The translations under genes and the position numbers were made by a program. A stretch of 64,000 nt of DNA from [Borrelia] lusitaniae (GTDB lineage Bacteria; Spirochaetota; Spirochaetia; Borreliales; Borreliaceae), in the NCBI RefSeq assembly GCF_030440365.1, contig NZ_CP124050.1, positions 839,615 to 903,614 of the forward strand, given 5' to 3'. Each line of letters begins with the position of its first letter. Positions within the stretch are counted from its first letter, which is position 1. Below are positions 25,665 to 29,348 of this stretch, in pieces. The notes under the pieces were generated by a model. The model ran no database searches. It was not told the origin of the DNA and saw nothing but the letters and a program-made list of their open reading frames with translations.

Positions 25665-26531
25665 GTGAAAAGTATGACGGGATTTTTTTATTTGGAAAAG
25701 ATAATTGGTAACTACATGTTTAGTGTTAATTTGAAATCTTATAATGGAAAATTTTTAGAATTTAAACTTAAGTTACCAGAAATTTTTTCTGGCTATGATC
25801 TTGATATAAGAAATTTGATTTCAAAATATATTAGTAGAGGTAATGTTTTTTTAAATGTAGGGTATAAAGAATTGGTTCCTCGTATGAATTTTACAGTTAA
25901 TCCCAATTATGTTGAGGCTATTTCTAGGCTTAGAGATTCTTTGGCACATACTGATCTTAATATCAAGAACGAACTAAGTTTAGGCGATTTTTTATCATTA
26001 AAAGGGGCTTTAATAATAGATGAGGATAGTGAGCAACAAGAAGAGATTTATGGACTGTTTAAAGGTGTTTTAGAGGAAACCTTATTTCATTACAATAATG
26101 TAAGAAGTTTTGAAGGAGAAAATACTAAAGCAGACATAGTGTCAACTCTTGTACTAATAGAGCGAGATCTTAAAATTGTTAAGGATGCTTGTAATGATAT
26201 AAATGCCAGATTATTTGTAAGCATTAAAGAAAATATCTCTAAATTAATGGATGAATTTAGAGATATAAATATTGCAGAAGAGGCAGCTAAAATGGCAATT
26301 CGTCTAGACATTAATGAAGAGATAGTGCGTTTAGATTCTCATATAGAAACTTTTTATAAAAATCTTGAATATGAGATATGTGGAAAAGTTCTTGAATTTA
26401 TTTCTCAAGAGATGCATAGAGAAATAACAACTATGAGCAATAAGGCGGTTGATCTTGATATTAAGAATTTGATTTTAAATATGAAGTTAAGTTTAGAAAA
26501 AATAAAAGAGCAAATAAGGAATGTTGAATGA
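25665..26531 (+). CDS. YicC/YloC-family endoribonuclease-like protein
   Basis: A 288-residue member of the YicC family, reported as endoribonucleases. Family marks are the start VKSMTGF, SVNLKSYNGKFLEFKLKLPE near residue 20-40, and the C-terminal EEAAKMAIRLDINEEIVRLDSHIETF followed by LEFISQEMHREITTMSNKA. The GTG start has AAGGG eight bases upstream. The last four bases overlap the cmk start. Confidence 0.92.
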   Translation: MKSMTGFFYLEKIIGNYMFSVNLKSYNGKFLEFKLKLPEIFSGYDLDIRNLISKYISRGNVFLNVGYKELVPRMNFTVNPNYVEAISRLRDSLAHTDLNIKNELSLGDFLSLKGALIIDEDSEQQEEIYGLFKGVLEETLFHYNNVRSFEGENTKADIVSTLVLIERDLKIVKDACNDINARLFVSIKENISKLMDEFRDINIAEEAAKMAIRLDINEEIVRLDSHIETFYKNLEYEICGKVLEFISQEMHREITTMSNKAVDLDIKNLILNMKLSLEKIKEQIRNVE

Positions 26532-27064
26532 AAATAGCACTTTCTGGTAAGAGTGGTTGTGGTAATACAACTGTAAGTAGCATGATTGCAAAACATTACG
26601 GTCTTGAGTTTATTAATTACACTTTTCATGATATTGCAAGAGAGCAGAATATTGCTTTTTCGGAGTTTTATGAGAAAGAGATAATAGGAAGAGATGATTA
26701 TTATTGGGATAGGTATCTTGATAGGAGATTGTCTGCGCTTTCTAAAAAAAATAATACAGTGCTTGCTTCTCGTCTTGCTATTTGGATTTCTAAGAGCGCT
26801 GATTTAAAAATATATCTTTATGCTAAAATGGAAGTCAGAGCAGAGAGAATAATGACTAGAGAGGGAGGTATGTATTCTGATGTTTTAAGTAGTACTTTTA
26901 GTAGGGATGAAAATGATAAAAAAAGATATTTAGCTATTTATAATATAGATATTGATGATTATTCCTCAAATACCGATTTAGTGATTGATGTTACAAATAT
27001 TAATCCAAATGAGGTTTTTGAATTAATTCGAGATGAAATTGATAAAAGAAACTTAAAAAATTAG
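26528..27064 (+). CDS. cmk: cytidylate kinase-like protein, short archaeal-type form
   Basis: A 178-residue nucleoside-monophosphate kinase-like protein, expected to phosphorylate CMP/dCMP. Its length and pattern fit the short (COG1102-like) cytidylate kinases rather than the 225-residue bacterial form. The phosphate loop is GKSGCGNTT (residues 7-15), with Asn where the standard P-loop Lys would be; archaeal-type enzymes also lack that Lys. Later motifs are LASRLAIWI and the Arg-rich lid RAERIMTREGG. AAGGAA lies six bases before the ATG, inside the yicC end. Confidence 0.8.
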   Translation: MKIALSGKSGCGNTTVSSMIAKHYGLEFINYTFHDIAREQNIAFSEFYEKEIIGRDDYYWDRYLDRRLSALSKKNNTVLASRLAIWISKSADLKIYLYAKMEVRAERIMTREGGMYSDVLSSTFSRDENDKKRYLAIYNIDIDDYSSNTDLVIDVTNINPNEVFELIRDEIDKRNLKN

Positions 27065-27103
27065 CCAAACTTATTTAATATGTTTAGTTTGTAAGGAGAT
27101 TAA

Positions 27104-27304
27104 ATGACTAAAGTGCCTTTAAAAAAAATACAAGATTTTGATGGAAATTTTTATGAACTTGTTGTTGCGACTATAATACGAACAGAACAAATAATAGACA
27201 ATATTTCTTTAGCAGAGCATGCTTTTTGTGATGATAAAATATTAGGACAAGCTTTTAATGATGTCTTGACTGGTAAATTTAGCTATTCAATTGAAGCAAG
27301 ATAG
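27104..27304 (+). CDS. rpoZ: RNA polymerase omega subunit
   Basis: A 66-residue protein with the omega pattern in compact form: [12 protein letters not shown] (the 'LV..AA.RARQI' helix) and the following acidic segment. Omega helps fold and hold the beta' subunit. It is shorter than the enteric 91 residues, lacking the C-terminal tail. A good AAGGAG site precedes the ATG. The miaA reading frame begins inside its last codons. Position next to cmk/yicC is common for rpoZ, which supports the call. Confidence 0.8.
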
Positions 27305-28211
27305 AATAGTTTTTATTTTTGGTCCTACGGCTGTGGGCAAAAGCAATATTTTGTTTCATTTTCCAAGAAATAAAGCAGAAATTATTAATGTTGACTCTAT
27401 TCAAGTATATAAAGAGTTCAATGTGGCTTCTTCAAAGCCAAGTAAAAAGTTAATGAAACATATAAATCATCATTTAGTAGATTTTTTAGATCCTGAAAAA
27501 GAGTATACTCTTGGAATTTTTTACGAACAAGCTTTAAGAATAGTAAAAGAAATAAAACAGAAAAAAAAAATTCCTATATTTGTAGGAGGTACTGCTTTTT
27601 ATTTTAAGCATTTAAAGGATGGATTTCCTTCAACACCTTTGGTTTCTTCTAATATAAGAGTTTATGTAAACGATCTTTTAAAACTTAAAGGCAAATCCCA
27701 TCTTTTAAAAGAATTGAAAAATGTAGACCCTATTAGATTTAATATGTTAAATAAGAATGATATTTATCGTATTAAAAGATCGCTTGAGGTTTACTACCAA
27801 ACAGGAATTCCTATTAGCCAATTTAAAAAAAAACAAAATAGCGAATTTAAAAATATTTTGATTATAGGGCTTAAAAGATCTTTTGAAGATTTAAAAACTA
27901 GAATATCATTAAGAATTAATGAAATGCTCAATAGCGGATTACTTTTAGAGATTAAGGGTTTGTTTAGTAAGGGTTACAATGAAAATACTCCAGCTTTTAA
28001 AGGGATAGGTTATAATGAGTTTTTGTTATGGAAAAGTAGACCTTGGTATAGTTTAAATGATATAATAAGTTTTATAAACAAAAATTCGTTTTTATATGCA
28101 AAAAGGCAAATGACCTTTTTTGCTAAGATTTCTGATGTTTTATGGTTTCATCCAGAGGATGATTTAGATGACATTTTGAATTTAATTTTTAAAGTTGATA
28201 AGGAGATTTAA
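27291..28211 (+). CDS. miaA: tRNA dimethylallyltransferase MiaA
   Basis: Adds the isopentenyl group to A37 of tRNAs that read UNN codons. The 306-residue protein has the ATP loop GPTAVGKS (about 12-19), then [41 protein letters not shown] and [16 protein letters not shown], all typical of MiaA. The C-terminal KRQMTFF completes the family. The start is TTG, overlapping rpoZ by 14 bases. Its 3' end contains the ribosome-binding site of the next small gene. Confidence 0.95.
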
Positions 28212-28214
28212 GGA

Positions 28215-28310
28215 GTGCCTTGCGGAAGAAAAAGAAAATTAAAAAAAATTTCTACTCATAAAAGGAAGAAAAAAAGAAGAAAAAATAGACATAAGAAAAA
28301 AAATAAATAG
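28215..28310 (+). CDS. small ribosomal protein bS22-type (COX24/AURKAIP1-like), 31 residues
   Basis: A 31-codon GTG-initiated gene in the same frame as miaA, one codon after its stop. AAGGAGA at 28200-28206, inside miaA, stands eight bases ahead of the GTG. The product is MPCGRKRKLKK followed by ISTHKRKKKRRKNRHKKK and ends in NK: over half Lys/Arg. It closely follows the pattern of small COX24/AURKAIP1-domain proteins of Bacteroidetes (MPSGKKRKRHK..THKRKK...RKNRHKK). I recall that a cryo-EM study of the B. burgdorferi ribosome reported unannotated bS22; this is the likely gene. The family match is from memory; the ribosome-binding site and pattern are seen directly. Confidence 0.85.
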   Translation: MPCGRKRKLKKISTHKRKKKRRKNRHKKKNK

Positions 28311-28356
28311 TTTGCTATATTGATCGGATTTTCCCGGTTATGTAGTAAAACTATTT
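28305..28356. repeat. 9-bp inverted repeat between bS22-type gene and convergent lipoprotein gene
   Basis: AAATAGTTT (28305-28313) and AAACTATTT (28348-28356) are exactly complementary with a 34-base loop that itself contains CGG/CCG. It joins the stops of two convergent genes, so it may help end transcription from both sides, though it lacks a clear T-run. Confidence 0.35.
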
Positions 28357-28722
28357 AGAATGTTCAATTATTAGATTGTTTACTATGTTTATGTCTTTGC
28401 TAAAGATGTAGCTTTTAGTTCCCTTGTAATTGACCAGGATCCAATTTCCTTTAACTCCATAGCGTTCTGTTTTTTCTAGTGTTTTTTCAATTTTTACGAC
28501 TTCATCTTTTCTAAGTAGAGTTGCGTAATCATAATCCAATTCGCTATTTTTCTTAGTGCTTTTACTAAGGAAAGCATAGTCTTTTATTATTATACCCACT
28601 TTATTGCTAAAGCCAAGAATGCTACTTTTGGGCAAATCCAATTTTTGAATGAGAGGAATTTTGTTATTTTTATTACAAGCTAAAAGAATTAAGGATATTA
28701 AATATAATGTTTTTGTATTCAT
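28351..28722 (-). CDS. small lipoprotein with SH3-like region
   Basis: A 123-residue protein with a short signal peptide and the lipobox ILLAC (Cys16). The middle and C-terminal parts (EVVKIEKTLEKTERYGVKGNWILVNYKGTKSYIFSKDINIV) look like a bacterial SH3-type domain, which often binds cell wall or peptides. AAGGAA stands just ahead of the ATG. It is divergent from the barrel-like gene at 28803 and convergent with miaA/bS22. The exact role is unknown; surface or periplasmic location cannot be told. Confidence 0.75.
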   Translation of the reverse strand: MNTKTLYLISLILLACNKNNKIPLIQKLDLPKSSILGFSNKVGIIIKDYAFLSKSTKKNSELDYDYATLLRKDEVVKIEKTLEKTERYGVKGNWILVNYKGTKSYIFSKDINIVNNLIIEHSK

Positions 28723-28758
28723 AATTTCCTTGATTTTTTATATACTACTTTAGTGTGT

Positions 28759-28776
28759 TACTATAATAATATAGTA
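28759..28776. promoter_or_regulatory. AT-rich hairpin in divergent promoter gap
   Basis: TACTATA and TATAGTA arms enclose ATAA, and six T follow on the + strand. The motif includes TATAAT (28762-28767). It lies in the 80-bp gap between the divergent SH3-like lipoprotein gene and the barrel-like gene, so it may be a two-way -10 region or an operator. No good -35 stands at the right distance. Confidence 0.35.
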
Positions 28777-28802
28777 TTTTTTAGAATTTTTAAGGATTGT
28801 TA

Positions 28803-29348
28803 ATGAAGAAATACCTTTTTTTTATTTTATTTCTCATCTCTTCTAATAATTTAATTGTTTCTTATCCACTTTCTTTTGGCGGAGGTTTTTCTTATCAATT
28901 TACTAATTATACTGATCAAACAAGCTCTACCAAATTTGCTTCAAATTTTACTAGGTCAGATCATGGGATTAATTTTAATTTATTCTTTGATGCAAATTAT
29001 GCACTTTTTGAAATCTCTTACAAAGAGGCTTTTGTTCCTACTCACAATGGTAGATATTTTTCGTTAGGGCTTTATGGGACATATCCAATGATTTTCAAAG
29101 AACAGATTAGAATGCTTTTCCCATTGATTGGGTTTAAATATGCCTTTGATTTGAGTTCTACTAAGCACAATCTCTTTTTTTTAAGCATGGGTCTTGCTGC
29201 TGATCTTTTTATTCCTGATATTGAGGGTTTGTACATTAGGCCTTTGTTTATGCTTTCTCTCTCTCCATTTTCTAATTATAAAAATTTTTCTGGGTTAACA
29301 ACCGAAATTATGCTTGGATTTAATATTGGTTGGAGATTTTTTAATTAG
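28803..29348 (+). CDS. putative small outer-membrane beta-barrel protein
   Basis: A 181-residue protein with a signal peptide (KKYLFFILFLISSNNLIVSYP) and alternating hydrophobic/polar strands rich in Tyr, Phe and Gly (GGGFSYQFTNY, INFNLFFDANYALFEISYKEAF, FSLGLYGTYPM, NLFFLSMGLAADLF, TTEIMLGFNIGWRFFN). This pattern is typical of small beta-barrels, as is the aromatic-rich end. I chose ATG 28803, with AAGGA six bases ahead, over TTG 28797. The gene end overlaps the convergent glycosidase gene by eight bases. Function unknown. Confidence 0.65.
   Translation: MKKYLFFILFLISSNNLIVSYPLSFGGGFSYQFTNYTDQTSSTKFASNFTRSDHGINFNLFFDANYALFEISYKEAFVPTHNGRYFSLGLYGTYPMIFKEQIRMLFPLIGFKYAFDLSSTKHNLFFLSMGLAADLFIPDIEGLYIRPLFMLSLSPFSNYKNFSGLTTEIMLGFNIGWRFFN

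Follow-up and report, generated by a model that had tools for sequence, protein, structure and literature searches.

The reading frame studied here lies downstream of a closely packed run of genes on the forward strand of the window, i.e., the whole 64,000-nucleotide stretch of [Borrelia] lusitaniae DNA that was analysed. The run comprises a gene that we take to be of the YicC type, a cytidylate kinase-like gene, an RNA polymerase omega-like gene and miaA, all in one direction and followed by the short frame itself (Table 1). A long hairpin extends across the stop codon of the frame into the end of a convergent gene. A search against Rfam across positions 27000-29000 gave no match at E <= 1.

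Table 1. Features in and around the bS22 frame (window coordinates)
Feature	Position	Strand	Remarks
YicC-type gene (presumed)	25665..26531	+	Open reading frame; upstream in the same gene run
Cytidylate kinase-like gene	26528..27064	+	TIGR02173, E 6.3e-38; same gene run
RNA polymerase omega-like subunit (rpoZ)	27104..27304	+	NF001588, E 4.3e-06, and Pfam Rpb6, E 0.041, both below cut-off; overlaps the miaA start
miaA, tRNA dimethylallyltransferase	27291..28211	+	TIGR00174, E 1.6e-111; first possible start TTG; stop ends 3 nt before the bS22 GTG
Shine-Dalgarno site of bS22, AAGGAGA	28200..28206	+	Inside the last miaA codons; from the sequence and from AGGAG upstream in 59/60 loci
bS22 gene (bb0822 orthologue)	28215..28310	+	31 aa; GTG start; TAG stop at 28308-28310
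Long hairpin, probable terminator	28304..28357		Spans the bS22 stop codon and the end of the convergent gene
Convergent open reading frame	28351..28722	-	123 aa; downstream of bS22

With its GTG taken as methionine, the frame translates as MPCGRKRKLKKISTHKRKKKRRKNRHKKKNK. A sequence search of the PDB returned chain V of 8fmw, named "30S ribosomal protein bS22", as the best match (E 4.5e-11). The first 28 residues of the frame are identical to all 28 deposited residues of this chain, so that the comparison with the structural bS22 chain proposed in the first-pass annotation yielded the same sequence. The second match was 7jil_5 (E 2.6e-05) and the third was 9i5v_10, named AURKAIP1/COX24 domain-containing protein (E 3.4e-04); nothing further was found for the frame in the PDB at E <= 10, and a profile built from eight bS22 sequences retrieved the same three chains. 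We take 7jil_5 to be the bS22 of Flavobacterium johnsoniae, and its 29 displayed residues recur in Flavobacterium loci. The frame is strongly basic, about 30 residues long, and has the columns that are invariant in eight homologues (M1, P2, G4, K6, R7, K8, K11, H15-K19, N24-K27 and K29). It had been assigned to the COX24/AURKAIP1 pattern, and this assignment holds by the similarity to 9i5v_10. The Pfam model COX24_C (PF08213) gave no match to the frame and was touched by only two of the eight homologues (best E 0.23). Pfam and NCBIfam together returned no family for the 31-residue protein, and because these models miss it, the gene may go unannotated in other spirochaetes. Relatives of bS22 in other phyla do bear the name AURKAIP1/COX24 domain-containing protein.

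To follow the gene through relatives, we use the names Borreliaceae, class and phylum for kinship groups of the sampled genomes, with one genome per family for the other members of the class; L and G numbers denote loci and genomes. bS22 was matched in 60 of 61 genomes, namely 36/36 Borreliaceae and 24 of the 25 other families of the class. The only miss, G050, is an assembly of 81% completeness which also has no bL34 match. Frame conservation, named in the first-pass annotation as a refutation test, was intact throughout the Borreliaceae, where each of the 36 genomes has a single match with an uninterrupted reading frame. Across the phylum, a match at E <= 0.01 was obtained for 163 of 198 genomes, a count made by E-value alone that includes weak matches such as G069 (E 0.0019). 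The other 35 genomes, 20 of which are among the 152 of good quality, had no match at this threshold, which may be due to loss or to divergence.

The protein is strongly constrained. Between 17 Borreliella and 18 Borrelia loci (306 pairs, codons 2-31, with the one-codon-shorter L036 excluded), pS was 0.751 and pN was 0.009, a ratio of 0.012. Codons 2-13 showed less synonymous difference (0.40) than codons 14-31 (1.07, the method overshooting on so few sites). The single residue change published within Borrelia bS22 is K10Q (PMC10618245), which we found in 6 of the 36 Borreliaceae loci. Beyond it, K11R, K23Q and K29R each occur in one locus and K31R occurs in two. L002 carries K23Q, L032 carries K31R, L034 carries K29R together with K31R, L035 carries K11R, and L036 has a changed end that is one codon shorter.

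A chance Lys/Arg-rich open frame in the AT-rich DNA after miaA, never translated, might also be short, of low complexity and without any Pfam or NCBIfam match, as this one is. Such an origin is refuted by the 28/28 residues shared with a chain of a solved ribosome. The pN/pS ratio also argues against it, as does the presence of the frame in 24 of the 25 other class families although the neighbouring genes differ. In its own genome, moreover, the frame has a single match at E <= 10 (contig positions 867829-867921). We therefore give a chance origin next to no credence and conclude that the frame at 28215-28310 is a real gene which encodes bS22.

This gene is already known. The B. burgdorferi 70S structure revealed two ribosomal proteins missing from the genome annotation, bS22 and bL38; bS22 was fitted to the density and assigned to bb0822, which lies at 867605-867697 of AE000783.1 and starts with GUG (PMC10618245). 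Our match in the relative G002 covers exactly these coordinates, which means that the locus of the paper and that of the window are the same gene, as the first-pass annotation had supposed to be probable. Because the passages on bS22 in this 2023 ribosome paper already give the gene, its coordinates and its GUG start, our reading of the frame is correct but not new. The description of the gene as hidden thus no longer holds. The main text of a study of Borrelia RNA ends (PMC10319736) contains neither bb0821 nor bb0822. Mass spectrometry, as reported alongside the structure, identified every ribosomal protein except bS22 (PMC10618245), which may be explained by a reference proteome lacking bS22 and by very short tryptic peptides. 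bb0822 was also reported to have no transposon insertions (PMC10618245); with only 93 coding bases in the gene, this is weak evidence of essentiality.

The first-pass annotation had further described the gene as coupled to a tRNA-modifying enzyme. As a statement on gene order in Borreliaceae this is accurate, since tblastn placed miaA directly upstream of bS22 in 36/36 genomes. It does not extend to the rest of the class: miaA lies within about 300 bp upstream of bS22 in only 5 of the 24 other families (L039, L040, L041, L043 and L050; tblastn), and miaA as a general partner of bS22 was accordingly rejected. Relatives of cmk and yicC lie ahead of miaA in three of these five, the yicC relative being found in L040, L043 and L050. 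As miaA is present somewhere in 23 of the 24 genomes and adjoins bS22 in five, the linkage is either ancestral or recurrent, and is mostly absent. tRNA genes were also considered as a recurrent neighbour and rejected, with one occurrence in 24 loci.

Given the close spacing of miaA and bS22, ribosomes reading through the miaA stop codon could in principle produce the frame chiefly as a C-terminal tail of MiaA. In the window the two genes do share one frame and are separated by 3 nt; the same arrangement holds for 16 of 18 Borreliella loci, and the frame is shared in 17 of the 18. However, 17 of the 36 Borreliaceae loci (16 of 18 Borrelia loci and L017) have the end of miaA in a different frame, and in these 16 Borrelia loci the miaA stop ends 13-17 nt upstream of bS22. 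Nineteen of the 24 other class members have no adjoining miaA at all, and bS22 keeps a Shine-Dalgarno site of its own. Because the frame relation is not kept, a read-through fusion is disfavoured, and we consider it extremely unlikely compared with bS22 as a separate protein.

Other neighbours recur outside Borreliaceae. A dxs-like gene starts less than 1 kb after the bS22 stop in 9 of the 24 loci (L039, L046, L047, L048, L052, L053, L054, L056 and L059), the name being confirmed by NCBIfam for L046 and L054 and assigned by the first residues for the other seven. In organisms that use the isoprenoid pathway fed by Dxs, this pathway supplies the substrate of MiaA. That dxs follows and miaA precedes bS22, both being tied to isoprenoid supply for tRNA modification, may be a coincidence. 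The bS6 gene follows bS22 after 159 nt in L051 (confirmed by NCBIfam) and after about 1.8 kb in L055 (by first residues). In 7 of the 24 loci (L044, L045, L046, L047, L048, L052 and L053), two divergently oriented genes lie upstream of bS22, one MurD-like and the other encoding about 315-335 aa; in L046 the former is murD according to NCBIfam, and the latter had no NCBIfam match.

The hairpin at the bS22 stop folds with -23.4 kcal/mol, compared with a shuffle mean of -8.7 (z -5.96). On the reverse strand a run of eight T comes after it, complementary to bases in the final bS22 codons, so that coding sequence and probable terminator sequence overlap. A simple terminator scan listed nothing at 28304-28357. 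We consider that the hairpin is probably the terminator of the convergent gene and perhaps terminates both genes. Strong hairpins follow bS22 in many, though not all, Borreliaceae loci, and by eye their sequences differ between the two genera. The convergent open reading frame has a lipoprotein-like N-terminus, as judged by eye, and a weak SH3_3 match below cut-off (E 0.0059); relatives of it were found at 36/36 Borreliaceae loci and at none of the 24 others.

Translation of bS22 appears to be directed by a ribosome-binding site within miaA. The GTG-started, Lys/Arg-rich frame preceded by an AAGGAGA inside miaA was found as the first-pass annotation described it, with 9 nt between AAGGAG and the GTG. 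Another AAGGAG is found at 28210-28215, where it overlaps the start of bS22 itself. Since AAGGAG occurs at chance level in the window (34 observed against 30.0 expected, sd 5.3), what gives the site weight is only its position and its conservation. The latter was among the checks suggested for the locus, and AGGAG was indeed found in the 20 nt upstream of bS22 in 36/36 Borreliaceae and in 23 of 24 other class loci.

The start codon is likewise widely kept. bS22 starts with GTG in 35 of 36 Borreliaceae and in 19 of the 24 other class members, counts that take related genomes as independent and ignore shared descent; the five families with ATG are represented by L037, L039, L042, L050 and L056. 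As controls, we read two other ribosomal protein genes in these 24 genomes. All 24 bL36 genes start with ATG and none with GTG, whereas bL34, found in 22, has 18 ATG, 2 GTG and 2 unread starts, the last two having no start codon at the expected place and, by eye, an ATG a few codons upstream. Fisher tests, which ignore shared descent, gave p 7e-9 for GTG in bS22 versus bL36 and 1.5e-6 versus bL34 (4e-6 without the two unread starts). Base composition does not explain the GTG, because Borreliaceae loci of 26-34% G+C keep it and L050, with 71%, uses ATG.

Start codons in further genomes varied by group. Within the class, GTG was present in all six loci read from families f27, f28 and f29, and family f24, which is Treponema-like judging from the titles of L108 and L109, was mixed between GTG and ATG. 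Elsewhere in the phylum, the 18 starts read were 16 ATG, one GTG and one TTG. Among the matches listed, records with non-spirochaete titles had ATG in all 59 read of 60, with AGGAG before 4 of the 59, in a sample that is uneven and mostly Flavobacteria and includes three records without a known phylum in the title (L095, L096 and L153). The start codon was unread in L082, among the phylum loci L061-L090, and in L135, among the named-genome loci. Among open-licence PMC main texts we found no paper on a wider conservation of the bS22 GTG start, and among open-licence PMC papers none that paired bS22 with Spirochaet or Treponema.

Taken together, the frame encodes bS22, a strongly basic and helical protein of the 30S subunit, 31 residues long, which is probably translated from the miaA mRNA by means of its own strong Shine-Dalgarno site and GUG start. 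It would occupy the pocket seen by cryo-EM for the B. burgdorferi orthologue, formed by h2, h27, h44 and h45 of the 16S rRNA, and would touch H68 of the 23S rRNA as that protein does in the 70S ribosome (PMC10618245). By analogy with what the authors of related structures have suggested, it may stiffen the neck and decoding region and add an inter-subunit contact. The widely kept GTG could conceivably help to keep bS22 output in step with ribosomes. We assign this overall reading of the frame a probability of about 0.97.

What the GTG means for the gene is less certain. A weak start that is so widely kept suggests that translation of bS22 may be tuned or self-limiting. bS22 lies beside the decoding region and h45, near the anti-Shine-Dalgarno, and 30S subunits lacking it might therefore begin translation differently at weak start codons. 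On these grounds the GUG may have been kept because it is useful, GUG and strong Shine-Dalgarno together acting as a sensor for ribosomes without bS22 that restores the supply, but we regard this as an improbable idea. A somewhat better than even chance goes to the opposite account, in which the gene is equally bS22, the GTG has been kept by descent only and has no regulatory role, and the protein is made constitutively. GTG and ATG do interchange: 5 of the 24 other families and 1 of the 36 Borreliaceae have ATG, as does part of f24, and Bacteroidota and others work with ATG among the matches listed. The retention of GTG at such low G+C and the 0/24 and 2/22 GTG starts of bL36 and bL34 speak against descent only, although the tests on these counts ignore shared descent.

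Over the published work, our analysis adds the wide distribution of bS22 in the class, a few residue changes beyond the published one, the age of the loose linkage with miaA, and the broad retention of GTG as start codon. Whereas the ribosome paper, in its passages on this protein, considered bS22 likely to appear in other bacteria (PMC10618245), our matches extend it to 24 of the 25 other class families. Given the widely kept GTG, it becomes a testable question whether bS22 regulates its own synthesis through its start codon.

Compared with known systems, the window gene shows no difference of substance from B. burgdorferi bS22 (bb0822; 8fmw chain V): the 28 deposited residues, the GUG start and the chromosomal place are all the same, and the window comes from a sister species. 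Over 8 kb, one further contig of the same genome is 99.0% identical, at 97% coverage, to a plasmid of Borreliella lusitaniae, to which this one plasmid places the window nearest. Bacteroidota bS22, represented by 7jil_5, resembles it in size and pattern. It differs in its ATG start and in that AGGAG lies within 20 nt upstream in only 4 of the 59 listed loci with non-spirochaete titles, most of these loci being Bacteroidota. Actinobacterial bS22, described in Mycobacterium smegmatis and Cutibacterium acnes, occupies the same 30S site with contacts to h44 and h45 (PMC10085706), but is more distant in sequence and was absent from our PDB search results at E <= 10. Mitochondrial mS38 (AURKAIP1/Cox24) and cytosolic eL41 occupy the same ribosomal site as bS22 (PMC10618245, PMC6582356); mS38 is longer than bS22, and eL41 lacks the bend (PMC10618245). 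The nearest precedent found for the start codon is rpsT, which encodes bS20 and begins with UUG or GUG. This start has been supposed to mediate autoregulation, a view that the review in PMC10931766 describes as neither confirmed nor refuted. As would be expected of an autoregulated ribosomal protein gene of this kind, the bS22 gene keeps a weak start over a broad clade, shared descent being ignored in this comparison.
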